DNA of 64,000 nt from Prostheceraeus crozeri (lineage: Eukaryota > Platyhelminthes > Polycladida > Euryleptidae). Shown here in pieces: positions 4,632 through 64,000 of the stretch. The notes below the pieces were generated by a model that worked only from the letters and a program-made list of their open reading frames with translations, was not told the origin of the DNA and made no database searches. Location of the stretch: contig CAJQUW010000503.1 of assembly GCA_907163375.1 (NCBI GenBank), positions 124,001 through 188,000 on the forward strand. Reading direction: 5' to 3'. A program made the translations under genes and the position numbers. Numbering within the stretch: the first letter of the stretch is position 1; each line of letters begins with the position of its first letter.

Positions 4632-7617
4632 ATTCGGCAGTAGTAGAGTTTCATTACTATGTGCCTAATTAGTTGACATAATAGCATTCATGGATGATAA
4701 CATTTCATTTTGATTTAATTACTGGCATTTATCATTTTCACTTAAGCATATTGCCTTGACCTTATAGATTGACTGTACTAAAATGAAGTAATTGAACAAA
4801 ACTTCAACATGAACGTTACAGGAGTGCATCATAATAACACAATGGAAAGGCAAACCGCAAAAGCCGTACTTATTAGAAATAAAAATGAACAAAACACATG
4901 AAACTGATTAATAACGAAACAGAATGGAGCCATCAAATATACCAGCATTAACAGGAGGATGCATGAAAATGTACTGTGGCCAGTTTACACAGAAATGTGC
5001 TATGTTGACTTCATTGTCTTTGACATCACTATCTTTCTCCATTCACCCATGATATCCTTAATACTATACTTTCCAGATTTGATTTTAAAATCATAGTCCT
5101 TTTTTGATGAGTTCACTTTAAATTAAAAATCTGATTGAGAAGGGCGGTTCGCCGAAACATATTTTAGAAAAACAAAAGAAAATTATTATATGTGCATCGA
5201 AAGATTAATTTAAATTGCTTTAATTAAAATGTTATCGAAACCTTTCTTTACAAATTCAGTTTATATTGCAAGAAATCACTCATACTATATATTGATTAAG
5301 TTATTACACAATTTCCCTATGTATCCTTCTCATTTTGGAATACTCACTTGTCTATGATATATGCGTCTATATGTGCACATAGGTCTACATGAGCAGAAGT
5401 AAGTTTTCAGTCATTGGACTCAAATTGCACTTCTTATGTAGCTTCCTTGATTTTCTTTCATTCCAGAGCCTAATAGAGTCTACTCTCAAGAAAACTTTGG
5501 TATCGATTTACTGCTATCGCATTGCTTCATCGTTGTTCGAAGAGAGTAAATTGATTCTACGCCATCCATGAGATTTCAAGGAGAGCTGCATTTGGTCACA
5601 ATAGTAGTTTGTCAATGAGGCAATAGGAAAAGTGACTGTCTCCAGCCAAAAAAGAAATTGATGAGAAGAAGAAAGTGATAGTTTCATAGCTTAAATGACA
5701 ACATTTAAAAGTAATGGAATGGGAAAATATTCGAAAAGCCATTACTAAAAAGCTTGAAGCATTTCTGAGAACAAGCAACTGCATCATGCTCATAATGCGA
5801 GTAGGATACAGCTTTAATTTTTCATGCATGGAGTGACATGCAATATTTCCTTGTATCATGCATGAAGCCGCAATAAAGTATTTTTGCATAAATCAATATC
5901 TAAATCACTCATTTTTGTAATATAGTTTAGTGTAATTACCGGAACGCAGTAATTGATTGAAATTATTCAATTAAGCCTATAATGATATGTATTAAAATTG
6001 GCTTAATGTGGAACAGTTAGGCAACTAGGGGGTTGCGCGATGATCAGGCTGCGAATGGTGCGAATGACTTATAAGTTATAACCACGACTGTGGACTCGGT
6101 CGGTTTGTAGCCAAAGGGTCTGCCTCAGGTCCGACTTACGACTACAGATTTAAAGCAGAATTTTAGAGTCCCATAGATTATCAGATTCATAAGCACATCT
6201 CTGCAATTCGAGACTCTTGCAGAAGTAAGTCCTGATGTGTCGAAGCAAACCACGAACAGTTTATCTAATCAATAAAAAAGGTATGCTTTATACATTGTAT
6301 GTCAGCATACCACCTATCTCTTGATAGTACTCAGACGCTGACTAATGATGATTCCCTTCAAAAGTTTACGGACACCGAATTCCCTTTTGCACTTAAGTTA
6401 CATGGCTGTTGAACCATGCCGGCGATAGATTTTATTTTAAGGTACAACTGCTCCACAGTGAATTGAACATCATGAGCCAAAAAAAAGAAAGTAACAAGCT
6501 CACCGAATTTCCCTCATCGCTTGAAAAATAAAGTAAATTGCCATTTATAGTGGTGGGATAATTTTGGGACGCTGGTCAGATTTTTTCCTGCTGAGATTTA
6601 GTTCATTATTTAATAAGACGAAGTGTTCCTCTTACGCTGAATTAACTGTCAGCCGGGAAATTAATCGGGCATGTACGTAATGCAAAAGTTACTGAGCTCT
6701 CAGTACAAAACGAAGCTTTAAGTCTTGTAGACTTGCAGTATTATAGCTATTAAATTACATCTCTCATACACCTACTGGATTTCCCTGCTTTGCTGATAGG
6801 CCCCTATCGAAATTCATGCAACGCAAAATTAGTCATGCATTATTGTATTGCTGAAAATGTTTTTACATGTAAGTCCGCAGTAAGTACAAGATAAGGCTCA
6901 AAAGTCCGGAGTCCCTGCTTGTAGTTAAAAGCATGCTGCTAAATATGTCCAAAACTAAAGTGGTTTTTGTCTGTAAAAGCAACTGAGATGCAACGTTTCC
7001 TTTTTATTCGATATTCATGAAAGTTGTATTCTTCTCTTACTTCTCTATAACTGCTGCTCAAACCAGACTACTTACTTTAAGTAGCAAATATAGATCGATG
7101 ATTCTTCATGCAGAATTCATTATGAGAGATGAAAAAAAGTTGTTGATGATGTAAAGATGAGTTAGTCTCAGGAAAACACGTTCTCCATAGACGTAATTGC
7201 TCACCTGAATGAGTTCAAAAGCGCCTTCAGAATACTAAATCAGATGCACTTTCATTCAGTGTGGTATTTTACTTTTTATTAGCTAATTTCTCTCTCCACA
7301 CAGCCAGATGTAACTATCCTGTATGTTTTTGCGATATCTAATCGGAAAAATTATATGTTCCGGTTCCGTTAGCGACGATTTGAATCATATCAGTGTCAGT
7401 GTCACGTTGGGGATTTGATTGGTGGTCACAAGAATAGGGATCCAGAAAGCATGGGAATGATGGCAATGCTGAAATGAGGTTAGTGCATGTATACGATGTG
7501 TTATTCGAGCATTCGACATGAGTACTTTCAAAGCATTAAGAGACATTGAAATCAGCAACTGTGTCGGAATTTAATCAGGCAGTCAATAAGAAAAAGTTTT
7601 GTTTATGACTTACCATG
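4632..7617. other. No gene recognised
   Basis: This is AT-rich unique-looking sequence with only short random ORFs. At 5131-5157 there is GGCG/CGCC followed by GAAA after CTGATTGAGA, which looks like a degenerate hammerhead core and may mark the 3' end of the old retroelement that starts at the window edge. Confidence 0.4.
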
Positions 7618-7619
7618 TA

Positions 7620-8977
7620 AGGTGGGTGAGGTGAATAAGGCCCACCTAACAGACTTAGAGGTCTACAGTCTTCAATTTTTGATTAAATACTACGAATTCA
7701 TATTCAAATTATCTATTTCTGGTGCAGTTGACATGTGTGAGAAGTTCATCTCGATTATTGCGAAACTTCCGGTGTACGAGCAAAAAGATGAAAAATCACC
7801 GAGTGGGCCTTATTACCGACACGTGTAGGTAATAAGGCCCACTTTTGTTTTTATCTAATATATTCAATTTACGTAGCTTATAAGTCATTTCTAACATCTG
7901 GCTATATACAATGGATTGTATTCACCCTCTGGTACGAAAATTGGTATAATGAGATTAGATCTAATATATTCTTGTAATTCAGAGTTAGGACTTAAGTAAG
8001 CCCCTATGTAAAAAAAAGAAAAACGAAAATTGTTCATTCAAAAACATCGACTTTTATTGAAAAACAAAAGATATTTTTAACACGGGGAAAAATAACTATA
8101 TGATGGTGAAACCTTGTATTTGGTATTGCATAATCTCTCTATTATGTTATCAGTCATAAACACAGACTTTAGGCCTACACTGGAACAGTCAGAACAAACA
8201 ATTAGGAGCTAATCTATCGTCACTTCCATGACTTAAACCAACACAATCTAATCAATTGTGTATACCCAATTAGTCATCACATGCCATACACTGTCTCATA
8301 GGTCTACATTATTTAACTTTTCATCTTCCTCACAAATTTTGCAATCCCACGATTCATTGCCAGCTTGCTCATCTTTTCTACAATTAAGCTTGGGCCTACT
8401 GTTTTGCTTCTTGGATAGAACAGGGGCTTGCTTAAAGCGCTTTTTATTAGTAAAAAGTTTTTTTTAAGTAGTTGTGCTTTCTACGTAAGACTGCGCTTAC
8501 GTTTACGTGGATCTGACTTTCGTTGGATTTTCGGAGTACTGATTATACTGTGATAGGCCCGGGCCTTATTACCAGCATTTTGTATGGGCCTTATTGGCTA
8601 CATTGACATCGTTTTATAATCAGTGTTATTTCTTACTTTCCCGAACTCAAAAATCAAACTACTACATAAGGTCATAGAGAGGATGCGCCAGAGATAATTT
8701 TCCATGTTAAGAGCTCATCTACATCAACATTTTGTGTCATGAAATCCTTGAACAAATGAAGAGCAAACATTAGATCAACGAAGAAATTTGAATATACTTT
8801 TTTTTGAGATGCTGTAGAATCTGATCCACTTGACTAAAATCGATAAAACTTCTGACACTTAATTGAAATTAGATATATTTTCAATTCTTTTTTGTTGCGC
8901 TCAAATTCGTTAAGCAGTTTCCGAGATCTAGTAAGTGGGCCTTATTACCAGCTGGACCTTATTCACCTCACCCACCT
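7620..8977. mobile_element. TA-flanked inverted-repeat DNA transposon, non-autonomous (1.36 kb)
   Basis: The left terminus AGGTGGGTGAGGTGAATAAG recurs inverted at the right end, and both ends abut a TA dinucleotide (7618-7619 and 8978-8979). The motif GGGCCTTATTACC or its complement recurs inside at 7802-7817, 7828-7843, 8561-8573 and 8934-8949, with a variant at 8586. The first pair forms a perfect 16-bp palindrome around a 10-bp centre. No transposase is recognisable. A 68-codon ORF (7622-7828) begins in the terminus and ends in the palindrome, so it is probably fortuitous. The superfamily is uncertain; the TA duplication fits Tc1/mariner-like elements. Confidence 0.75.
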
Positions 8978-50667: not shown

Positions 50668-51437
50668 ATGGTAAGTCGCTACTTTCCTCCCTCCCTTGAA
50701 CGTAAACTTAATACAATCTTTTCCATTTTCAGGCATCTACTCCATCTGCTGCACTAGTAGGACAAAATGGTGGTCAAACGTTACATGGTTCGCTACGATC
50801 AGATCATCTACAACTGAGGCCAGTGGAAGAAACAACCAAGGTACATAATCCTACACCGCTACAGCGTAAATTTAAACAAGCCTTGCGTTATGACGATCAT
50901 GGTGTAGTACTCCAAACGGGAATGCTCCCTTCCACGGATGTCAAGCTAATGCACAATCAGTATGGGGACTACATACTGATCCCCGTGAGTCCATACATTC
51001 GCCGCCAACTTGATATTATTGAGGAGTACGTGACATTAAATATGGACATTCCTACTCCTCTTGCTCAAGAGTGGAAGGCGAGAGATGACAAGGATACTCC
51101 CTATAGAAAGATTTGGGATGGTAATCAAATTTGCCTACCGGTATCACATTGGTGCACTTACTATAAGAAGGAGGGAGATCATTCAACACCCATCACATGC
51201 GACGAGCTCGGAGAAGGTACTTGGGATATCCTTTTCGAAGTGAATGGGCTATATTATGGTCGGCACAAGAATAATAAAATAGCCTCTCTCTCCATGCATA
51301 TGGAATCCATCCTATATATTCCAAAACCACCCAACGTGGACGACATAATTGATCAAATCCTTAACAGCAGTGGTACGAAGGGCAAGTCGGAGAAGAATGC
51401 TGCATCAAAAAGCAAATCAAAGAAGGAGAATTACTAG
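50668..51437 (+). CDS. Polinton protein of unknown function, spliced
   Basis: The coding sequence starts with a single ATG codon (50668-50670), directly followed by a GTAAGT donor. The 62-bp intron ends TTTTCAG (50732), and the second exon runs 50733-51437, giving 236 residues. Without the intron there is no suitable ATG for the open frame. The middle shows an IPVSPYIRRQLDII stretch, LPVSHWCTYYKK and WDILFEVNGLYYG; the tail is Lys/Ser rich. The strand-rich centre and basic tail would suit a single-stranded-DNA-binding protein, but this is inference only; I do not recognise the family. It is the leftmost gene and is driven by the CCAAT/TATA promoter, so it is probably early. Confidence 0.7.
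50671..50732 (+). other. 62-bp intron after a one-codon exon
   Basis: Donor ATG|GTAAGT and acceptor TTTTCAG|GCA; phase 0. The spliced frame is open for 236 codons. Confidence 0.75.
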
Positions 51438-51471
51438 TCCTTTCCTAACTCTACCCTATGACAATTCGTTT

Positions 51472-51597
51472 ATGTGCTTTGAGTGTCGTAGACGTGGTCT
51501 TATTAGATACATTTTACTTCTTCGTTGCCATCATATCATTTGTGTATTTTGTTGTGAAAAGCATCGATGTAATTCTTCATTTTGTAATATGTTATAG
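51472..51597 (+). CDS. Small RING-like zinc-finger protein 1
   Basis: A 41-residue frame starting ATGTGC. The Cys/His spacing is C-x2-C, then about 14 residues, C-x-H-x2-C-x2-C and further C and H residues (CFEC ... CHHIICVFC ... C), like a short RING. The frame is open upstream to 51349 inside the previous gene, so a spliced or longer form is possible. RING proteins often act as ubiquitin ligases; here this is inference from spacing only. Confidence 0.45.
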   Translation: MCFECRRRGLIRYILLLRCHHIICVFCCEKHRCNSSFCNML

Positions 51598-52264: not shown

Positions 52265-52675
52265 ATGTCTTTCTCAAACGACTGCGGAACATTACATTTT
52301 CATAGGCAAAGTTTAAAAGGAGCTGTTCAAGATTATGTGATAAATTTTCATAAAGATGAGACCGACATCGAAGCAGTGGTCGATGATGCTAGCACTCTAT
52401 TTCTAGAGTTAATGAATACATTCTCTGATAGCATTATCATGGCGCGATTAGTTGCGAAAATTAAGTTTAGTCATTTTGGAAAGGAAGAGGTGGAAAGTCG
52501 CTCTTTCCATTTTGCTTCTTATTCAATGGAAGTGGTAGATCATCCCGAAGAATTTTTTAAAAGACATATGATAAAAATTGCTGAACGTCTTAATGCATTT
52601 AACCATCATGGTAGCAGTCTAGTGATTGAAGCGATTTCAGATATTCACATTCAACTTTCCATAAAGAAAAATTGA
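52265..52675 (+). CDS. Polinton protein of unknown function (136 aa)
   Basis: The frame starts at ATG 52265. The sequence has VVDDASTLFLELMNTF, an amphipathic stretch, and FNHHGSSLVIEAISDIHIQL near the end, a hydrophobic-alternating strand pattern I associate with small proteins found next to Maverick polymerases, without a known function. There are no catalytic motifs. It lies 84 bp after the exonuclease-like gene. Confidence 0.5.
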   Translation: MSFSNDCGTLHFHRQSLKGAVQDYVINFHKDETDIEAVVDDASTLFLELMNTFSDSIIMARLVAKIKFSHFGKEEVESRSFHFASYSMEVVDHPEEFFKRHMIKIAERLNAFNHHGSSLVIEAISDIHIQLSIKKN

Positions 52676-52833
52676 AAATACAGTGGTACTTGATTGTAGC
52701 ACAACTGGTTTTCGAGCTATGTCTGCTCACTCTCGAAGTATATTCCTTCTGTACATGCGTCTATTATTTAGAAAAGGCTAGCAAATTCATATCTTCAAAA
52801 AGACTTGCTATAGACATCAGTAACGGTGAAACT

Positions 52834-53001
52834 ATGTGTTGTGATGTATGTAAGCGAAAGGATGGAAATGAAAAGCGCATCTTCAAGAGATGTAAGCACG
52901 CTTTTTGTCAACGCTGTTTCATACGTAATTGCATTCAACTTTGCAAATGTAACCACTGTGACATTGCTCATTTCGAGTGTCACTTATGTCGCAATAGTTA
53001 G
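52834..53001 (+). CDS. Small RING-like zinc-finger protein 2
   Basis: 55 residues from ATG 52834. CCDVCKRKDG, then RCKHAFCQRCFIRNC, then CKCNHCDIAHFECHLC gives C-x2-C, C-x-H-x2-C-x2-C and two more C-x2-C pairs, a convincing cross-brace RING or a related zinc fold. The open frame extends back to 52672 with a hydrophobic segment (YLIVAQLVFELCLLTLEVYSF), so a longer membrane-anchored form made by splicing or a non-ATG start cannot be excluded. Confidence 0.55.
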   Translation: MCCDVCKRKDGNEKRIFKRCKHAFCQRCFIRNCIQLCKCNHCDIAHFECHLCRNS

Positions 53002-53006
53002 TACCT

Positions 53007-53018
53007 ATGCAAATGTGG
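53007..53018 (+). promoter_or_regulatory. Octamer-like motif ATGCAAATGTGG
   Basis: ATGCAAAT matches the POU/octamer consensus. It lies 35 bp before ATG 53053. Similar motifs precede five other element genes. Confidence 0.4.
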
Positions 53019-53052: not shown

Positions 53053-53412
53053 ATGGCGAAACGTAAAATGGCGAAACGTAAAAATTCTTCAAAGTTTTCT
53101 TCAGCCATTCAAGCTCTCCGACGAATGAAAGCAAATCAGCGATACAATGCTATACGACATGCCAACGATAAATTCATTCGTGAAATTATTTCTCATGTCA
53201 GAAAGTTGAGGACGAAGACATTAGCGCCAAAACAACGAAAGTTACTTAAGCGATATGCTACAAAATTGCGTTTCATCTCCAATCCTAAAGTCAACCTTCA
53301 AAGAAAGAGGAAAACTCTAACACAAAAGGGCGGTTTCCTTTCAGCAATACTTCCAATGATAGCTCCTGCCGTGGGCAACCTATTGGGAAATATCTTTGGC
53401 TCTAAGCGTTAA
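53053..53412 (+). CDS. Basic virion core protein with hydrophobic tail
   Basis: 119 residues. The first 90 are strongly basic (MAKRKMAKRKNSSK, RKLRTKTLAPKQRKLLKRY), then TQKGGFLSAILPMIAPAVGN gives a hydrophobic, Gly-rich end, closing with GSKR. Adintovirus/Polinton elements carry such proteins, thought to be DNA-condensing core or membrane-active capsid components related to adenovirus core peptides. The N-terminus repeats MAKRK twice. It overlaps the extended frame of the ATPase gene by 17 bases, but not its likely ATG. Confidence 0.7.
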   Translation: MAKRKMAKRKNSSKFSSAIQALRRMKANQRYNAIRHANDKFIREIISHVRKLRTKTLAPKQRKLLKRYATKLRFISNPKVNLQRKRKTLTQKGGFLSAILPMIAPAVGNLLGNIFGSKR

Positions 53413-53414
53413 TT

Positions 53415-53426
53415 ATGCAAATGTTG
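53415..53426 (+). promoter_or_regulatory. Octamer-like motif ATGCAAATGTTG
   Basis: It lies 18 bp before the ATPase ATG at 53444. Confidence 0.4.
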
Positions 53427-53443
53427 AGTCTCAAAGTAATAAA

Positions 53444-54061
53444 ATGGATTTCAGACTTCAATGTGATAAAGTTCTGACTGTATCAGGTCCATCTCATGCA
53501 GGTAAAACTGTTTTCACGCTGAATTTATTGGATAAAAGAAGGGAGTTGTTTAAGGAACCTATCAATCGAGTGATTTGGTGTTATGGTATTTATCAACCGT
53601 CGTTGTTTCAGGAATTGCAAAGTCGCAACTTTATTCGACATGAAGGAATTATTGCAGTGGATAAACTTCAGTCTAATGATGTTGTTGTATTGTATGATCT
53701 ATTAAAAGAAAGTAAGAATTCAAAAGATGTTACAGATATGTTCACTCGCGCAGCACATCATAAAAGGTGCTTTATCATCTATATCACACAAAATTTGTTT
53801 CCTGATGGAAAAGAAGCTCGTACACGAAACCTGAATACACACTATTATGCTATTTTCAAGAATCCGCGAGATAAAAGTCAATTTGAAATTTTAGCGCGAC
53901 AAGTTGCACCAAGAGGATCAAAAGCCTTAATTGAAATTTTTCAAGCAGCTACTGAAAAACCATACGGTTACTTATTCATTGACTTTACGCAAGAGTGTCC
54001 GGAAGAATTTAGATTTCGAAGTGATATTTTGAAAACTCCCATGATTATCTACAAACTATGA
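53444..54061 (+). CDS. FtsK/HerA-type genome-packaging ATPase
   Basis: 205 residues from ATG 53444 (the frame is open to 53396 without another ATG). Walker A is SGPSHAGKT at about residues 15-23, and a Walker B-like strand DVVVLYDLL lies near residue 85-93; the usual DD is YD here. A sensor-like IIYITQNLF follows, with RNLNTHYYAIFKNPRDKSQFE as in related packaging ATPases. The protein pumps the genome into the preformed capsid. Its stop overlaps the next start (ATGA at 54058-54061). Confidence 0.88.
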   Translation: MDFRLQCDKVLTVSGPSHAGKTVFTLNLLDKRRELFKEPINRVIWCYGIYQPSLFQELQSRNFIRHEGIIAVDKLQSNDVVVLYDLLKESKNSKDVTDMFTRAAHHKRCFIIYITQNLFPDGKEARTRNLNTHYYAIFKNPRDKSQFEILARQVAPRGSKALIEIFQAATEKPYGYLFIDFTQECPEEFRFRSDILKTPMIIYKL

Positions 54062-54751: not shown

Positions 54752-54967
54752 ATGAAGCAGATGTGTTGCTTGCCATGTAATGAGCCGCCAGAGGTGAATG
54801 TCGTTGTCACTTGCACTTGCTGCGCCAGCTCTCATAATGAAACCCTTAAGCAATGTGAACACGATCGCAAAACCGCTAAAGCTAAATGCTGCAGTTGTTG
54901 TAAATGTAGAAAGGCAAGAAAACAAAAAGATGAGAAGGAGGAAAAAGAGTCAGTCGTCATCGACTGA
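54752..54967 (+). CDS. Small cysteine-rich protein
   Basis: 71 residues from ATG 54752, one base after the preceding stop. Cys pairs: MCCLPC, CTCCASS, CCSCCKCRK, with a charged tail. It overlaps the start of the integrase frame. No family recognised; it may be a zinc-binding peptide, or a fortuitous frame over the integrase leader. Confidence 0.4.
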   Translation: MKQMCCLPCNEPPEVNVVVTCTCCASSHNETLKQCEHDRKTAKAKCCSCCKCRKARKQKDEKEEKESVVID

Positions 54968-56017
54968 ACGTTTGAAGTCAATCTATTATGATGTAAAACA
55001 TCCGGCAGGATTTGCATCTATCAAGAAATTATCAAAAGCGAGTGGTCTTCCACAATCACAAGTGAAACGATGGTTAAAGGGTCAGGCTACCTATACACTC
55101 CACAAACAAGCGAAAAAGAAGTACCGCACCCGCCATTATATTGTTCATGACATCGATGAACCGTGGCAAGCAGATTTGTGCGATGTTGCCTCCATTTCAA
55201 AACATAACTAGGGTAATAATTTTATTTTAACCGTCATTGATATTTTCTCGCGTTATGCGTGGGCTCAACCTTTAAAAACTAAAGAAGGGAAAGGAGTAGC
55301 AAAAGCTTCCAAACAATTTTTCGAGAAGGCCGCATTCCAAAAAGAATTCAGAGTGATCAAGGAAAAGAGTTTGAAAATCAGCATGTGACAAGATTATTTG
55401 AGAGGCATGACATTGAGTTGTTTAGTGTAAAGAGTGCTTTTAAAGCTGCACTCGTTGAACGTTTTAATCGCACATTAAAAAATCGCTTGTGGCGACATTT
55501 TACTGCCAACTTGACACAAAATTGGACAAAGGTTCTACAAGATACACTCCATGCCTACAATCACTCTATCCATCGTTCTATTGGACTCAGACCAGTAGAT
55601 GTAAATGCTGACAATGTAGATAAAGTGCGCGAATCATTCCAACGTAAACGCACTCATGTGAAAAGTGATGTGAAAATTGGTGATAAAGTTCGTATCTCAA
55701 AAGTGAAGAGTGTTTTTGCTAAAGGGTACCTTCCGAATTGGACAGAGGAGGTATTTACAGTATCAAGGATTAATCAAAAAGACTCTCCAACCACCTACAA
55801 GTTGAAAGATTACGATAATGAAGAAATTGAGGGTAGCTTTTACTGCGATGAGATTGAGGTAGTCACTGAAAGTGAAACATATTTGGTAGAGAAAATCATT
55901 CGATGTAAAAAACGGCAAGGTGAAGAATGGTGTCTTGTTAAATGGACTGGTTATCCTTCAAGTATGAACTCTTGGATGCGTCGTGCCGACATCTTTCATC
56001 TAAGTGATCGACAGTGA
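54930..56017 (+). pseudogene. Polinton integrase with chromodomain (stop and frameshift)
   Basis: A retroviral-type integrase that inserts the element. From ATG 54930: basic leader, IYYDVKHPAGF, the AYTLHK-like TYTLHKQAKKKY block, then DIDEPWQADL (first Asp). An in-frame TAG at 55209-55211 is followed in the same frame by LTVIDIFSRYAW, and a one-base loss near 55330-55340 moves the rest to the frame of 55385-56017. There follow QSDQGKEF (second Asp), ALVERFNRTLK (catalytic Glu), YNHSIHRSIG and a C-terminal chromodomain (VEKIIRCKKRQGEEWCLVKW, NSWM). All catalytic residues are present but two lesions disrupt the gene. The chromodomain may direct insertion to modified chromatin. Confidence 0.85.
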
Positions 56018-56516: not shown

Positions 56517-57793
56517 ATGGAGTGTAAAACTTCCGGTTTTTGTTTGTTTGATCAACAAGCCATACAGACAGATATTCTTAGTTCAAGTATTGTAGATTAT
56601 CATCCTCGAACAGCTGAGAATGCTGGCCCCATTGAATTTGTTATTCCTGGTGGTAGTGATGACTACACAGATTTGAGTTATGCGATGGTTGATTTGAGGT
56701 TTAGAATTCAGCAAGCAGATGGAACTGCTATTGACGATACACATAAAGTTGGGATGAACAATTTACCATTGACTACATTACTTCGCGATGTTTCTCTAAC
56801 GATTGGAGAGCAGCAGGTGGAAGGTGGTCAAAGCGATTATCCCTATAAATCATATTTCAATCATGTATCACAGTTTTATCCAGCAGCACAAAAAAGTCAT
56901 ATGGAAGCCATGGGATGGTACAGAGATGAAGCAGGAAAATTTGATGTTGAAACAAACAGTGGCTTTGTAAAGCGATCTGCTATGATTAAAGATAGTAAAG
57001 TATGTCAGCTATATGGTCCGCTGAATTTAGACTTCTTTAGACAGTCAAAATTTTTACTCTGTAATACCAGCATGCGACTCAAGCTGACATTGAATAAGCC
57101 TGAATTTGCGCTGAATGCATTTGCTAAAGTTGACAATTTTAGAATTCATGTGGAAGATATTGCACTTTACATTCGTCGAGTAGTACCGAATCCAAGTGTC
57201 ATTAGGGGACATGCTGAAGGTCTTAACCGCCAAAATGCCATTTACCCCGTTCAGCATACAAAGCTTCTCACCTTTACAATTCCGAAAGATCAAAAGAGTT
57301 TCATGAAAGATGGCCTCTTTCCATCGGAAGCACCGAAGCTCCTCATGGTGGCAATGGTTGAAAATGATGCATTTAATGGTAATATAAAGAAGAATCCTTT
57401 CAATTTAAACACAATCAGGTAAGTGAAATTGCTTTACGTGTAAATGGTGTGAGTCATCCTGGTCCACCCTACGAACCAGATTTTGCTGCGGATCAATTTA
57501 TGCGCAGTTATGTTGATTTTATGGATGTTTTTGGCACTTACAATACGGATGACACCAACGGACTGACTATGAAAGAGTTTAAGAGTGGATATATTATTTA
57601 TGCATTTGATTTGACTGCTGACAGCGATATTAGTGCCCCCTATCGTCAAGCGAACGTGCCTCATAATATTCGTTTGGATTTGACGTTCAAAGGAACACTA
57701 CCTGAGACGATCAATGTATTAATTTATGCAGTCTTCGATTCAAATATTGAAATTACAAAGTATCGTGACGTGATTCTTCAGTATAATCGTTAA
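56517..57793 (+). pseudogene. Major capsid protein, double jelly roll (one frameshift)
   Basis: The Polinton MCP forms hexon-like trimers. The first frame (56517-57422, 301 codons) has PIEFVIPGGSDDYTDLSYAM, the Asn-Leu region before LLRDVSLTIG, YPYKSYFNHVSQFY and long strand-rich sequence. Near 57397 a single base appears to be missing from a T run; the C-terminal jelly-roll end continues in the frame that ends at 57793 (LRVNGVSHPGPPYEPDF, LTFKGTLPETINVLIYAVFD). Together about 425 residues, somewhat short of the usual MCP of 500 or more. The lesion may be real or a homopolymer miscall. The stop overlaps the protease ATG by one base. Confidence 0.8.
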
Positions 57794-58254
57794 TGAGTTG
57801 GTTGACTGCTGACGATATTAAGACTAAAGTGCAGCGTAATGCAGACGAAGCGACGTTGAAAGCTTTCGATAATGTCTATTCACTCGATACCTTACCACCT
57901 GCAGTAAATCACTATCCCATCTTTATTGTGCTAAACACTCATTCGCAGAATTTAGGCGGTGAGCATTGGAAAGCCATCTTTATTGGAGAAGACCGACGTG
58001 GTGAACTATTTGACTCTCTTGCTCAACCTCCAAATATACCAACACAGCAGTGGTTGAGAAAACATACGCGTCAATATCAGCGAAATGAATGCATACTACA
58101 ACATCCACTTTCATCAACGTGTGGTGCTTTTGTACTGTACTTCATCTTAAAACGTTTACATGTATCTCGATTTGTATCTATTATTCAAAACTTTTCATGT
58201 AATCCATCCTCAAATGAAAAAATGATTTGTAAGTTCTATCATGATTTGAAATAA
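57793..58254 (+). CDS. Adenain-like cysteine protease (capsid maturation)
   Basis: 153 residues. The catalytic triad is visible: His in GGEHWKAIFI (about residue 56), acidic partner in GELFDSLA (about 71-76), and Cys in SSTCGAFVLYF (about 109), with a Gln in the preceding QHPLSSTC run. This is the C5/ULP1 fold used by adenoviruses and Polintons to cut virion precursors. The start overlaps the MCP stop. It is the last of the plus-strand structural genes before the minus-strand block. Confidence 0.88.
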   Translation: MSWLTADDIKTKVQRNADEATLKAFDNVYSLDTLPPAVNHYPIFIVLNTHSQNLGGEHWKAIFIGEDRRGELFDSLAQPPNIPTQQWLRKHTRQYQRNECILQHPLSSTCGAFVLYFILKRLHVSRFVSIIQNFSCNPSSNEKMICKFYHDLK

Positions 58255-58280: not shown

Positions 58281-58826
58281 TTATTTTACAATCCGCTGGG
58301 TACGTACATACTCAATGAGATAGTCTAGGATCACATTTGCTTGTACATGAGATTTTAGTCCAGTAATGATCACTTTACTATTATGAAAGATTGCCACATG
58401 CACAGGTAACCAACAACTAATGAGAGCTGCAGGAAAAAGTTCGGGTTCATAACACCAATTGTAACTGCTGGTACGAATCTTCAAAAATGATACACTTTCA
58501 CTCAATTGAGTAGAGATCACCATATTGTCCACAGTCAGATTCGACATCACACACCTCTCCCTCTTCCATATCCGACGTAGTAGTCTCTGTAGCTCTAAGC
58601 GCATTGACTGCGCCGATGAATGAGAAAGGGCGCCGAGAATCTGTACAGTCCCATTTGGGAAGAGTTGAAGATTCCGTGAATTGTTCATCTTCACCACTAA
58701 CATTTGAGGACGGCCCGGGTAATACTTGCTGTTTGGAAGGTATTGGTGTAATGTTGTGAGATCGATTTTGGTGTAGAGTCTGAAGCGACGGAGAATGTTG
58801 ACGATGGTGTAGCGATGGCGCTTCAT
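58281..58826 (-). CDS. TATA-binding-protein-like transcription factor
   Basis: 181 residues from ATG 58826, the size of a TBP core. Repeat 1: TKIDLTTLHQYLPNSKYYPG, then RNLQLFPNGTVQILGA (residues 19-66). Repeat 2: VDNMVISTQL, CYEPELFPAAL, VAIFHNSKVIITGLKS (99-159). These match the TBP saddle, including the YEPELFP and FxSGKxxxTGxK signatures. Of the four DNA-intercalating Phe, three are kept (F56, F131, F147); the fourth position, in repeat 1, is Pro40. The frame is open to 58970, but that part overlaps the upstream gene, so the ATG at 58826 is preferred. Located on the minus strand among Polinton genes, convergent with the protease (26-bp gap). Role: probably redirects RNA polymerase II initiation to element promoters. 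Divergence from cellular TBP argues against a recent host pseudogene. Confidence 0.85.
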   Translation of the reverse strand: MKRHRYTIVNILRRFRLYTKIDLTTLHQYLPNSKYYPGRPQMLVVKMNNSRNLQLFPNGTVQILGALSHSSAQSMRLELQRLLRRIWKRERCVMSNLTVDNMVISTQLSESVSFLKIRTSSYNWCYEPELFPAALISCWLPVHVAIFHNSKVIITGLKSHVQANVILDYLIEYVRTQRIVK

Positions 58827-58845: not shown

Positions 58846-59148
58846 TCAGCGATGTACCTTCCTTTTATACTTTTCCCAACTACCTTGATGAAATGTGAAG
58901 TTAGAATGAAGTTGGGAATGATAGAGTTGAATTCGCCGATTGTTGACGCGCAGCCAGATGCGATTTCCAATACGTGAATGTCTTTTCATATAGAAGTATT
59001 TCAAGTCCTTCATGATATGATGTAGAGATTGAAAATGACGATAAGATAAAGCAAACTCTCTTCTCACATTTCCAGTTGAATCTTTGAAATAGACGTTTCG
59101 ATCATGATCCGTTTCAATACGTTGTAGGGAATCTAATTTCCAACTCAT
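58846..59148 (-). CDS. Small paralogous protein A, weakly PC4-like
   Basis: 100 residues from ATG 59148. Shares with protein B (59171-59527) the pattern W-x-LDSLQ-x-I, D-x-D-x-NV-x-FK, R-x-x-x-L-x-x-R-x-F, IM-x-DL-x-YF, G-x-x-x-WL, IQ and WEKY-x-R-x-x-HR. Each half (strands, then a helix with Phe or Trp) resembles the transcription coactivator PC4/p15, which has alternating strands followed by GISL-x-x-x-xW and a helix. That similarity is weak and inferred. It lies just upstream of TBP-like on the same strand; an octamer-like motif sits 28 bp before its ATG. Confidence 0.55.
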   Translation of the reverse strand: MSWKLDSLQRIETDHDRNVYFKDSTGNVRREFALSYRHFQSLHHIMKDLKYFYMKRHSRIGNRIWLRVNNRRIQLYHSQLHSNFTFHQGSWEKYKRKVHR

Positions 59149-59170: not shown

Positions 59171-59527
59171 TTAAGATTTGCATAGTAGGACGATGAACTC
59201 ACGACGAATAAATGTCATGATGGAGCGATGTATGTATCTTCTATACTTCTCCCAATTGTATTTGCGAAATGAGAAACAGTTTGCGGAATGAGAATGGCAG
59301 ATTTGAATTTCATTTCTGTAATGTTGAAGCCAAACTTGATCACCCAAGGAGATGAATCTTAATGTTTCAAAATATTCCAAATCCCTCATGATATCATTGA
59401 GGTTGACAAATTGTCGCCATGCTAATGTAATACCTCTTGATGTATGACCATGAGAATTTTTGAAGTGTACGTTTCCATCACGATCAACTCTGATATATTG
59501 TAGAGAGTCCAAAATCCAAGTCTTCAT
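59171..59527 (-). CDS. Small paralogous protein B, weakly PC4-like
   Basis: 118 residues if started at ATG 59527 (the frame is open to 59539 with another ATG, but MKTWILDSLQ aligns with MSWKLDSLQ of protein A). Contains VDRDGNVHFKNSHGH, RGITLAWRQFVNLNDIM, LGDQVWLQHYRNEIQICHS and NWEKYRRYIHR. The RGITL and helix stretch recalls PC4's GISL-x-x-x-W. It probably arose by tandem duplication with protein A, and within each protein two half-repeats are suggested. Divergent from the gene at 59563, with only 35 bp between start codons. Confidence 0.55.
   Translation of the reverse strand: MKTWILDSLQYIRVDRDGNVHFKNSHGHTSRGITLAWRQFVNLNDIMRDLEYFETLRFISLGDQVWLQHYRNEIQICHSHSANCFSFRKYNWEKYRRYIHRSIMTFIRREFIVLLCKS
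59176..59183 (-). promoter_or_regulatory. Octamer motif ATGCAAAT, minus strand
   Basis: It lies 28 bp before the ATG of protein A (59148), at the end of protein B's frame. Confidence 0.35.
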
Positions 59528-59533
59528 GATGTT

Positions 59534-59544
59534 ATGCAAAGTTG
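59534..59544 (+). promoter_or_regulatory. Octamer-like motif ATGCAAAGTTG in a 35-bp divergent promoter
   Basis: It lies between protein B (minus, ATG 59527) and the gene at 59563, 19 bp before the plus start. A TATAAAA stretch follows immediately before the ATG. Confidence 0.45.
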
Positions 59545-59562
59545 CAGATCAGCAATATAAAA

Positions 59563-60960
59563 ATGTCGTTTTATCATATTTTGCTTAGCAATGCGGCTAC
59601 AAAGAGATTTGCTAGTAATCGAGCCGCACTCTTTTCTACTCCCATTGATCATGCACGACAGCTAAATGGAAATTGGGAAGTGGGTGTCACTCAACTTGTT
59701 TATAGCAACTGTGTCTATACTTTTGATCATGAGGTGATGACTATTAATATGAGACGTACAGCTGCTTATCAATGTGAAAAAGGGTGCCGAGTATACATTC
59801 CACAGTGGCCAAAGAAAGATCTCTTATCATGTAAAAAGTTTATATATGATTTCTTGAATAAAGCGAGTAAACATATTGTCCAATTTACTCCGCACAATGA
59901 TGATTATAATTATGTACATCATGTAGTTGAGAAAGATTGGATTGTTGGTTTAAGTCCAAGTTTAAGAAATGATTTAGGTTACCTCGCTAGCGCCTTAACA
60001 AGCTATGATAATTTTAACGTTAATTACCACATAAGTGGTCATAAACAGTTAATATATCGAGAGGAAGCTTATTATGTAGATCTTATTCCAAGAAATGAGA
60101 AGACGTTGGTGAAGAAGATTGTGATTAAGCCAAGAAAGACAAACATGACTCCTGAAACATTATTGAAGAAATTTAATTATCTCCTTCGAGTTGATGGTAA
60201 ACAAGCGGCAACATTGACTTATATCAAATCATCTAATCATATTGCAATAAGCCAATTAAATGATGATGATCTAGTATTAGTTTGTTCAAAAGATTTTCAT
60301 CAGTTCTTACGACATCGTTCTGCAGCTGTTCATGGAAAATCTGATATGCAACATTTACCATGTGAAAGGTCAAATCAATTTGATACAGAATGGACCGTAT
60401 CTTTATACAGAAAGTGTGTACAGCCTTTAGGTGGTATCTTACATGAAACAAGAGTGTTGATGCCTAGCATTATTACTTCGGTTAAATTGGTTGTAGATTA
60501 TTTAAATGAAGTGATTAATGAGCAACATATTTCATTTTCTGAAAAAGAAGGTACTTTGTCTCTCACTATAAGTGGAAAAGGTATTGAACTAATTATGGAT
60601 AAAACTCTAATGGACATTTTGGGTTTTGATCAAAATATCTTTAAAAGTGGTACTGTAACCAAAGCTAGCGCAGACATGTCGCTATCGCGTCGTATTAACT
60701 ATTTTCAGATATATTCCAATATTGGTGAAGATGTACGTGTGGGAGATGTTGAAGCTCCATTGCTAGCAATGATACCATACCAGCCAAAAAGCTGCAGTAT
60801 TTTATCTGAGCATACTTTCAAGAAAGTGCATTATACAAAGCTGAAATCAAACTACATCCCACAAATTGATATTGCCATTTATGACGATGCTGGTGCGTTG
60901 ATTCCTTTTCATAAAGATGCTGTGACAAGTATCACACTCCATTTCCGAATGAAGAGTTAA
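59563..60960 (+). CDS. Polinton structural protein, paralogue 1
   Basis: 465 residues from ATG 59563 (the frame is open to 59542 by a TTG). The N-terminus has FYHILLSNAATKRFASNRAALF, then LNGNWEVGVTQLVYSN, a signature shared with other Polinton and hydra-type virion-like proteins. The middle is strand-rich, and the C-terminus has IDIAIYDDAGALIPF and TSITLHFRMKS, also conserved. The role is unknown; a minor capsid, penton or spike component is likely given its size and place. No transmembrane segment or signal peptide is obvious. The paralogue follows at 61000. Confidence 0.7.
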   Translation: MSFYHILLSNAATKRFASNRAALFSTPIDHARQLNGNWEVGVTQLVYSNCVYTFDHEVMTINMRRTAAYQCEKGCRVYIPQWPKKDLLSCKKFIYDFLNKASKHIVQFTPHNDDYNYVHHVVEKDWIVGLSPSLRNDLGYLASALTSYDNFNVNYHISGHKQLIYREEAYYVDLIPRNEKTLVKKIVIKPRKTNMTPETLLKKFNYLLRVDGKQAATLTYIKSSNHIAISQLNDDDLVLVCSKDFHQFLRHRSAAVHGKSDMQHLPCERSNQFDTEWTVSLYRKCVQPLGGILHETRVLMPSIITSVKLVVDYLNEVINEQHISFSEKEGTLSLTISGKGIELIMDKTLMDILGFDQNIFKSGTVTKASADMSLSRRINYFQIYSNIGEDVRVGDVEAPLLAMIPYQPKSCSILSEHTFKKVHYTKLKSNYIPQIDIAIYDDAGALIPFHKDAVTSITLHFRMKS

Positions 60961-60999: not shown

Positions 61000-62443
61000 A
61001 TGGAAAGTGAAAATAAGGACTCGCTTCTAATCTACTTGCCCAGTAATGCTTCTATGAATAAATTTCCCAAAAATAAACCATCAGACTATCGAGTAGAATT
61101 AAATCGGCCACTGCATTTAGAAGGTGAATGGGAGGTTGGCGTTTCTAGTATTTGCTAGAATCTAGTATTTTCCCATACAATTTAACATCAGATCGAAAGT
61201 AGAACTATGAATGGATTCAGATAAAATCAGATTCTTATGAACCATTTGGGAATGAGAAAATTATTAAGGCATTCAACAGTGGTAATACTTCCGTCATGAA
61301 GAATAAAAATCAGAAAGCTTATGAGTTTACTATCTATCATTGGAGTGGGAGACAGTTCCTCCGCTTTCATTCTTTTACTAAAGGTCTTACGCTGAGGTTG
61401 GATAATGAATTCTATCCGCATCTTGGTTTTTGGTCATGGACTACATCTAACATCAATTGCTACTGCAAAATGTTAAAAAAGTTTATTCAAATCGAATCAA
61501 CAAATTTCATTATAGATTTAAAATATTTGATGAAGATGTTGTAGAATGCGAAGAACGCATCATTTTGAAAAAGCGTGGTGTTCAACCTTTATCACTTATT
61601 GAGTTAGTAAAACGATGGAATGAGACTGTGGGTAAGAAGTATGGAGAGAAAATTATGGCGGACAAAAATAAGTTGGTTATTCAGAAATATAATGACAAAC
61701 TTACAGTTTATTTCTCTCCAACCTTGCGTCATTTTGTAAGACATTATACACCTATTATTGGAAGCGGTGTGGTGTATGCTTCTCATGAATATCACACTAA
61801 AGCTGATTCAGTTAATGATGAATGGTGGGTGGACATCTATGGTGATCGCATCAAGAAAATTTACCAGTCTTATGAAGAATCTAAAGTTGCTATCAATATA
61901 ATGCCGCGTCTATATCATACAGTTGAAAGCTTCATTCATGTAGTAAATCCTTATATACAACAGAAGTTGAAACATGTGATGAAAAGTAAATATGATGTAA
62001 AGACACACCACATTTCGTTTTCAATTGAAAATCAACGCGTTGTTCTGAAACTGGGTGATGACATTCAATGTCAATTGAGTAAAAACTTGAAAAAACTCTT
62101 TGGTTTTTCAATGCTAAAAACAGTGTTTACTGCTGCGCATACGATTGGTATAGAAACACCAATGACACTTGATAAACATGAACAACACCTTTACATTCAA
62201 AGTGATTTGATTTTACCTATTTCTGTTGGTGAGAAAAAAGAATACATTTTACGTGATTTCATTCATGATAAAGACGCTTCATATGGAATAGTCGAGAAGA
62301 TGTTTGAATCTATTTTCTATCATCCCGTCGTCAAACAAACTATACCCTCTATTGCTATCAAAATTACCAATGGTTTACAAGAGTGCATCCAGGTGAAAGA
62401 TACTAAATCCCTCGTAACTTTAGTGTTTCGGAAAACAAAGTGA
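61000..62443 (+). pseudogene. Polinton structural protein, paralogue 2 (frame breaks)
   Basis: The N-terminus (LLIYLPSNASMNKFPKNKPS; GEWEVGVSSI) matches paralogue 1, then a TAG stops it at 61156-61158, beside a short duplicated word TCTAGTATTT (61142 and 61159). The frame is resumed as 61296-61544 and 61457-62443. The long last frame has GVQPLSLIELVKRWNE, HFVRHYTPIIG and, near the end, IAIKITNGLQECIQVKDTKS then LVFR, the paralogue's closing pattern. At least two breaks; otherwise well preserved. The start could also be 60970. Probably a capsid-associated protein made redundant by paralogue 1. Confidence 0.7.
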
Positions 62444-62622: not shown

Positions 62623-64000
62623 TTATGTAAATACATCTCCTGAACGTGGTAGCGTGAGTTTTATTCTTTTGGGTGGAGGTATGTTTGTGTCAGGATGTCC
62701 ATGTGGAAGAGATGTGTTATGTCCTATCCAACACCTCTTATCCTCCCATGCTGAAAGTGCTCGTTTCTTGAACGTGTACGTTTTCACAGTATGAACTTGA
62801 GATTTTAAGATTGTCATATTGACAAACGTTATAGTTTTATTTTTATAGGCCTTCTTATAGGACCGATGTTTCATTTTATGAACAATGGATTTTGATATAC
62901 CTTTAGCACGCTTAATACTATCTGCACATTCTTTTAATTTCATGGAATACATTTTAGGACGGAGGAGAATCATTTCATCTATTTCCTTTCCTGCTGTTTC
63001 ATCGCTAAAACAACCAAGTTTGGCTTTATTCTGTATGGAATAGAGTGGATGAGTGGGATTGTAGTTAGATGTGTCGAAATATTTTTCTAATGACTTGCCT
63101 ACTTCATTAAAATTTAAATCTTTTTGAGTGGTAATTCCTAAAAAGAAACTATCTGTATCACCACCCAGCAAGCGAACCTCTTTTACGAGAGGGCATGGTT
63201 TTAATATTTTGTAGAAGAGTTGATACATTTCCAGCTTGGAATAATCTAAAACGGCTTGCCCAATATAGATGGGTTTGCACAACTCAACTTCTGATTTAAT
63301 CATTTTAACACCTACAAGATCGTCATCGATGATGTCTCTATCAATGAAAAGAGGTGATGAGGTCAATTTGTGATATTTTTGTTCATCAACGACTAGTTTG
63401 TAATTCATACGTTTTCTAACATCCTCTATGGTCTTTCCGAATAGACTGTTATTCTTATATTTATAAAAATCCTTTTCAAAATTATTTTGGGCGAGTGCAC
63501 GTTTTTGACTGTTACTATCTATGTAGGGTTTGAGGAAGGCTTTCTGTCTAAATTTGATAATGCGGTGAACTGACTTTAGAAGCATGCCCATTTCTAAATA
63601 GAATTTTAATATGCAGAAGTGTACGAGATAATTTTTCTTATCATATTGGGTGAGTAAAAGTTTGCGGCATGGTTTGTACCTTGGCTGTCCACACTCTATT
63701 AAGTTATTATGAAATTGTGACATGAATGGTGAAAACATATCTTCAGTCACTTCACCAGATTCAGGTGCGAGTGGGAAATCAGCAGTTTTATTTCTAATGC
63801 TATTTGGATAAATCAAATCCACTTCAAAATAATATCCCCAATCACCTTCATCTGGAATCTTCAGTATGTTTGAAGGGTTGGAGTAATACTCAAGCTCATC
63901 TTGATTTAACCAACTAAACTCGGAATGAGGTAGTGGTTTAGACAGTGAACTGCCATATAAATTATTTTGGTCATAGTACTTTAGGTGGATATGATCAACA
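62623..64000 (-). CDS. Protein-primed family B DNA polymerase, C-terminal part
   Basis: The frame is open from the window end (the 63822 start seen in an ORF search is a GTG inside the gene). Polymerase motif A is YYDQNNLYG (63953-63978), motif B is YKNNSLFGKTIEDV (about 63430-63470), and motif C is LGGDTDSFFLGI (about 63140-63170), the Asp pair binding the metal ions. KMYSMKL follows. Polinton polymerases replicate the element from a terminal protein; the exonuclease domain and N-terminus are outside the window. No internal stop is seen. Opposite strand to the structural genes, as usual for Polintons. Confidence 0.9.
   Translation of the reverse strand, partial: VDHIHLKYYDQNNLYGSSLSKPLPHSEFSWLNQDELEYYSNPSNILKIPDEGDWGYYFEVDLIYPNSIRNKTADFPLAPESGEVTEDMFSPFMSQFHNNLIECGQPRYKPCRKLLLTQYDKKNYLVHFCILKFYLEMGMLLKSVHRIIKFRQKAFLKPYIDSNSQKRALAQNNFEKDFYKYKNNSLFGKTIEDVRKRMNYKLVVDEQKYHKLTSSPLFIDRDIIDDDLVGVKMIKSEVELCKPIYIGQAVLDYSKLEMYQLFYKILKPCPLVKEVRLLGGDTDSFFLGITTQKDLNFNEVGKSLEKYFDTSNYNPTHPLYSIQNKAKLGCFSDETAGKEIDEMILLRPKMYSMKLKECADSIKRAKGISKSIVHKMKHRSYKKAYKNKTITFVNMTILKSQVHTVKTYTFKKRALSAWEDKRCWIGHNTSLPHGHPDTNIPPPKRIKLTLPRSGDVFT

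Follow-up and report, generated by a model that had tools for sequence, protein, structure and literature searches.

A TBP gene inside a Polinton

We analysed a 64,000-nucleotide stretch of the Prostheceraeus crozeri genome (contig CAJQUW010000503.1, positions 124,001 to 188,000; hereafter the window), which contains toward its end a mobile element of the Polinton/Maverick type. A preliminary description, made from the DNA letters alone, had noted an open reading frame (ORF) for a TATA-binding protein (TBP) within this element. The ORF is indeed present, on the minus strand, and by profile, fold and key residues it encodes a TBP-family protein:

58281..58826, minus strand: TATA-binding protein gene with two TBP repeats, 181 amino acids (aa), ATG at 58826 and stop at 58281
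58863..58869, minus strand: TATAAAA sequence, 43 nucleotides (nt) upstream of the TBP start codon, within the terminal coding part of the adjacent ORF

The product matches the Pfam family PF00352 with 71.5 bits, well above the curated cut-off of 22.9, in two stretches that correspond to both TBP repeats. A TBP fold is predicted, in which two direct repeats form the saddle, and structural matches to TBPs were obtained. The expected YEPELFP signature was also found. The TG-x-K signature stands for the C-terminal repeat, which has TGLK, and fails for the N-terminal repeat, which reads LGAL at this position.

On the plus strand of 58281..58826 the same frame is riddled with stops. A 229-aa version of the minus-strand ORF that starts at TTG is unnecessary, because the start of the nearest relative, P0002, coincides with the ATG at 58826; P0003 has a longer N terminus. 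As had been claimed, the gene is a single uninterrupted ORF, whereas the integrase and capsid genes of the same copy each fall into two ORFs. The position described for it, between protease and structural genes, is accurate only in a loose sense. The protease ORF (57793-58254, plus strand) adjoins the TBP gene, but the capsid gene (from 56517) lies beyond the protease. On the other side are two small minus-strand ORFs, followed by a 472-aa ORF.

A conserved TBP family linked to Polinton genes

Relatives of the TBP were sought among 5.8 billion proteins with E ≤ 0.001. Sixty of the 87 candidates are TBP relatives, every one with a TBP domain, and their identity to the window TBP is 34-81% by BLASTP and 31-78% over the alignment.

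Linkage to Polintons was assessed by comparing the sizes of the longest contigs bearing TBP relatives with those of contigs bearing relatives of the capsid protein (the best 120 of 176 matches). In at least four cases the longest contig of a TBP cluster has exactly the size of that of a capsid cluster: 20463 nt (four contigs on either side), 15429 nt, 7106 nt and 5702 nt. These size-matched contigs are all among the 14 TBP contigs of at least 5 kb; when sizes are shifted by 1-300 in both directions as a null model, the mean for the 14 is 0.09 matches and the maximum 2. Across all 60 TBP rows the null has a mean of 0.56 and a maximum of 4, such that the all-row count alone would prove less. Equal contig size is evidence, not proof, that TBP and capsid genes share one contig. 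P0002 (TBP, 81% identity) and P0063, a relative of a neighbouring ORF (78%), both reside on contigs of 1771 nt.

Scanning genome contigs with the capsid alignment yielded two additional loci, L001 and L002. The L001 contig is 8.9 kb long and was assigned to a metagenome-assembled genome (MAG) of Bacteroidia; it is most likely stray animal DNA because it bears a histone 3′ untranslated region stem-loop. The capsid proteins of L001 and the window share 32-33% identity, and L001 has a TBP gene at 1159-1695 (Pfam 1.5e-27; PDB 4e-20), 52 nt upstream of the integrase gene on the same strand. The two TBPs share 27% identity and have ELF-x-AA-x-I in common, compared with E-(L/Q)-FPG in the cellular TBPs used. 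Gene order is unlike that of L001, as the window TBP gene follows the protease gene on the opposite strand. The TBP gene recurs in other Polintons, and a conserved TBP family linked to Polinton genes is supported.

The phylogenetic tree has 66 rows: 57 family members, three eukaryotic, three archaeal and two viral-contig TBPs, and the TBP of L001. Four database rows shorter than 155 aa were removed before tree building, and the host's own TBP is not among the rows. The family is a single clade (support 100/99, the bootstrap values being rough) apart from the cellular and viral-contig TBPs and from L001. Besides its main group it has a second one, which comprises 12 tree rows. The rows closest to the window TBP are P0002, P0003 and P0004. 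L001 groups with the family at 98/98 support, but both are long branches, a situation about which the method warns. Approximately unbiased tests do not reject the grouping of L001 with cellular and viral-contig TBPs (p 0.145), or that of the family with eukaryotes (p 0.097) or archaea (p 0.14). The TBPs of L001 and of the family may derive from either one old acquisition or two.

No relative of the Polinton TBP was found in a phage collection, nor were relatives found in a viral contig collection by the TBP, the TBP alignment, the ATPase, the first capsid ORF or the capsid alignment. Cellular TBP queries matched two loci in the latter collection, and the viral-contig TBPs L003 and L004 fall outside the Polinton family in the tree.

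Residues retained and replaced

Residues were counted, in yeast numbering, across an alignment of 61 rows with human and archaeal TBPs; F56, F131 and F147 of the window TBP correspond to yeast F116, F190 and F207. These are three of the four intercalating Phe residues, as the preliminary description had it. The C-terminal half is well kept, with N159, V161 and F207 in all 61 rows and F190 and T215 in 60 each. The E-x-E-L stirrup that contacts TFIIB is likewise retained (E186 in 60/61 rows, E188 in 61/61, L189 in 54/61), and in the N-terminal half F116 is present in every row.

The protein therefore shares with cellular TBP (the TFIID subunit) the two-repeat saddle, the stirrup, three of four intercalating Phe residues and the C-terminal TG-x-K. 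It differs in being a mobile-element gene product, in having only 18-26% identity in structural alignments, and in carrying Pro at F99, Leu at T124 and a G-R-P motif in the N-terminal stirrup. Because the F99 position is Pro, such that the full set of intercalating Phe residues of a canonical TATA-bending TBP is lacking, we place the protein in the TBP family rather than among canonical TBPs.

Other genes of the element

The remaining genes of interest are as follows:

53396..54061, plus strand: packaging ATPase gene, 33% identical to the L002 ORF at 1979-2650 (1e-43), with weak Pfam AAA matches
54798..56017, plus strand: integrase gene with chromodomain (Chromo 2.7e-7, above cut-off), split into ORFs 54798-55211 and 55385-56017
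56517..57793, plus strand: major capsid protein gene, split into ORFs 56517-57422 and 57449-57793, no Pfam match
57793..58254, plus strand: adenain-like protease gene, Peptidase_C48 0.0048 (below cut-off), 30% identical to an L001 ORF (4e-10)
58846..59148, minus strand: small ORF, 100 aa, 44% identical to 59171-59539, from which a PUR/Whirly-like fold is inferred for it
59171..59539, minus strand: small ORF with a predicted PUR/Whirly-like fold, first ATG at 59527, the fold model being made of this ORF
59542..60960, plus strand: 472-aa ORF, similar to 61457-62443 (5e-13) and weakly (0.002) to L001 2877-3278
62623..63822, minus strand: C-terminal part of a probable protein-primed DNA polymerase B, 38% identical over 82 aa to L002 3063-3518

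With a chromodomain integrase and a putative protease, ATPase, capsid gene and polymerase the element resembles known Polintons. The last four names draw on similarities to L001 and L002, in which the homologues of the capsid, protease and ATPase genes have the same neighbours; none of the four has a profile match above cut-off. A retroviral-type integrase, split in this copy, is indicated by the Chromo match and by the second integrase ORF, which is 31% identical (1e-31) to the L001 integrase, itself bearing an rve domain (4.2e-10). The first capsid ORF is 98% identical to P0065 (425 aa) and 32% identical to L001 3485-4771 (2e-42). The polymerase part yielded neither a Pfam match nor a useful PDB match; it contains the motifs GGDTDS and NSLFGKT. 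Compared with the L001 polymerase ORF it is not clearly similar (E 0.077), so the polymerases of the two elements may belong to different lineages. The L001 polymerase is seemingly spread over three ORFs (5557-8849, minus strand).

The element seems to extend beyond the end of the window, and the only candidate for terminal inverted repeats in 46-64 kb is one 30-nt pair at 77%. Pfam scans of 19 of the element's ORFs recognized no TFIIB and no RNA polymerase gene; one RPAB4 zinc-ribbon match is at chance level (E 0.53).

The ORFs at 58846..59148 and 59171..59539 are tandem paralogues that adjoin the TBP gene. Three database relatives were found for the product of the second. The likeness of the paralogues to PUR-alpha and Whirly proteins is seen in the predicted fold alone, with at most 11% identity and no sequence-level match: neither ORF has a PUR/Whirly Pfam match, nor does 59171-59539 have such a match in PDB. 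The two are thus best described as resembling PUR/Whirly proteins in modelled fold, and not as members of these families.

Several additional features were observed. A small basic protein (53053-53412, plus strand) has a sub-threshold match (0.0026) to Adeno_PX, adenovirus core protein X, and by eye an ORF at 1665-1976 of L002 resembles it. Cys/His-rich, RING-like C termini were seen by eye at 52672-53001 and 51349-51597 (both plus strand), with no Pfam RING match for the first. Positions 1-46000 of the window appear by eye to be crowded with other mobile elements. These include a gypsy-like element (42-45.4 kb), transposases of the mariner-like and piggyBac-like types, and Penelope-like reverse transcriptases, which lie at about 0-2 kb and, as two copies in opposite orientation, at 30-34.5 kb. 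Rfam gave no match in the window at gathering thresholds. Polinton fragments also occur in published bacterial MAGs (Pseudomonadota, Cyanobacteria, Bacteroidia and Ignavibacteria; the records behind P0067, P0155, L001 and L002), and most likely are stray eukaryotic contigs.

Sequences upstream of element genes

Enrichment of TATA boxes upstream of element genes was considered and rejected, as 16 stretches of 120 nt contain two TATAWA sequences against 1.9 expected. A different motif, ATGCAAA, lies 29-46 nt upstream of five genes (at 53007, 53415, 56021, 59177 and 59534), in four of the five cases as TATGCAAA. It was spotted by eye first and counted afterwards. For this count 15 genes were used rather than the 16 of the TATA test (the RING-like ORF was omitted and one start shifted), with 70-nt stretches. 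ATGCAAA occurs in 5 of these 15; of 500 random sets of stretches, three have a commonest 7-mer that reaches five. Within 50-64 kb there are seven copies compared with 5.2 expected under an order-2 model, and four of TATGCAAA compared with 1.0. The motif is not specific to the element, since 23 of the 30 copies in the window lie outside 50-64 kb, and it is found in none of eight upstream stretches of L001. ATGCAAA resembles the octamer site of POU factors. The motif is a lead, possibly representing a core promoter element or a POU-type site.

What the Polinton TBP might do

We consider it reasonably likely that the element uses its own TBP to transcribe its genes through host TFIIB and RNA polymerase II (Pol II), and so relies less on host TBP/TFIID. 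The protein would bind a TATA-like core promoter site of the Polinton, bend the DNA there and recruit host TFIIB, or a TFIIB-like factor, and thereby host Pol II. Polinton genes would then be transcribed with reduced need for host TBP/TFIID, and the two adjacent PUR/Whirly-like proteins might join TBP on single-stranded or promoter DNA. This proposal builds on the predicted TBP fold, the presence of both repeats, the intactness of the gene, the conserved Polinton-linked family, and the Phe and TFIIB-stirrup residues; from these we infer DNA binding, TFIIB recruitment and a preference for element promoters. In this manner the element might build its own pre-initiation complex, as initially suggested, given that the putative TFIIB contacts are retained.

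Several observations weigh against transcription by an element-encoded TBP. At F99, 57 of the 58 rows that have a residue carry Pro, and at T124 Leu stands in 55 of 61 rows, so that ordinary TATA binding may have been lost; the L001 TBP additionally has Thr for N159 and Ser for V161. TATAWA is not commoner than chance before element genes (2 versus 1.9 expected, 16 stretches). Any partners must be the host's, because no TFIIB was recognized among the 19 scanned ORFs. Moreover, 10 of the 14 long TBP contigs lack a capsid match among the best 120 of 176, L002 shows no TBP gene, though it is just 3.6 kb, and the nearest capsid-bearing contig, of 12876 nt, whose neighbour-ORF and capsid proteins are 97-98% identical to those of the window (P0062, P0065) yielded no TBP match. 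The N-terminal replacements are near-fixed rather than the product of random decay, which argues for altered specificity and suggests that the half-site of the N-terminal repeat departs from the standard TATA box.

Retention of TFIIB-contact residues alongside alteration of half of the DNA-binding surface would also suit a decoy that dampens host transcription through non-productive binding to host TFIIB or TATA boxes. We regard this as unlikely, as the kept N159, V161, F116, F190, F207 and T215 argue for continued DNA binding and a genome-resident element has no evident gain from it. A role in bending DNA for replication, packaging or integration would be consistent with the placement of the gene between those for protease and polymerase, next to two proteins of predicted nucleic-acid-binding fold. 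It is nonetheless improbable, because the E-x-E-L stirrup, whose known role is in transcription, is retained in nearly all 61 rows. We give little credence to a TBP-related factor of the TRF2/TLF type that serves TATA-less promoters: the altered N-terminal repeat, the absence of F99 and the lack of TATA-box enrichment would fit, but TRF2 has lost the intercalating Phe residues and three of four are present here (the tree being one without TRF sequences). Finally, although TBPs are host genes and the window looks crowded with mobile elements, a captured or retrotransposed host TBP that merely happens to reside in the element is very unlikely, because the nearest relatives are proteins of the same clade at 34-81% identity compared with 23% to human TBP, the 57-row clade stands apart from the six cellular TBPs included, and the gene is linked to Polinton capsid genes on other contigs.

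An extension of the favoured transcriptional role is conceivable but doubtful. A Polinton lineage might possess a self-contained promoter-recognition module, in which a TBP with a re-shaped N-terminal half reads an element-specific promoter (perhaps TATGCAAA-like) and, with PUR/Whirly-like helpers, diverts host TFIIB and Pol II. Such a TBP could be ancestral to much Polinton diversity and have been overlooked through divergence.

Relation to virus-encoded TBPs and implications

Giant viruses (Nucleocytoviricota) and mirusviruses also encode TBPs. The Polinton protein matches the named TBP of Heterosigma akashiwo virus 01 in structure (E 1.8e-10). The top viral structural match is BFVD entry A0A5P9U4S6 (E 1.1e-10, 189 aa, 21% identity). 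The respective reports describe TBP as a core gene of mirusviruses, found in 59% of genomes (PMC10132985), mention it for mirus-like integrated elements (PMC10675990), and record it together with TFIIB in Yellowstone Lake phycodnaviruses (PMC4602308) and with viral RNA polymerase subunits and TFIIB in Megavirus chilensis (PMC11464507). PMC7786948 also mentions TBP, in an unrelated context. The giant-virus and mirusvirus genomes are far larger, and no TFIIB or RNA polymerase gene was recognized in the 19 scanned Polinton ORFs.

The TBP gene also appears to set this element apart from Polintons described so far. Searches of the open full-text literature on Polintons, Mavericks or adintoviruses together with TBP, TFIID or TATA found no report of a Polinton TBP among the papers listed, in agreement with the preliminary description, and there is no relevant mention of TATA or TBP in PMC11071308, PMC11071296, PMC10120064, PMC8097293, PMC10328495, PMC9952930, PMC12721341 or PMC12220804. 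The gene is genuine, has a clear predicted activity and, as far as could be checked, was previously undescribed.

The genomes from which virus-encoded TBPs are known are much larger, and some of them also encode an RNA polymerase; here a TBP is retained in small mobile elements. That no TFIIB or RNA polymerase gene was recognized among the 19 scanned ORFs suggests that host Pol II is employed at the core-promoter step. If the proposed role is correct, the Polinton TBP and its promoters would constitute a natural TBP/promoter pair separate from that of the host, and would help explain how Polinton genes are controlled within host chromatin. The finding is also relevant to the proposal that the large DNA viruses of eukaryotes descend from Polinton-like ancestors.
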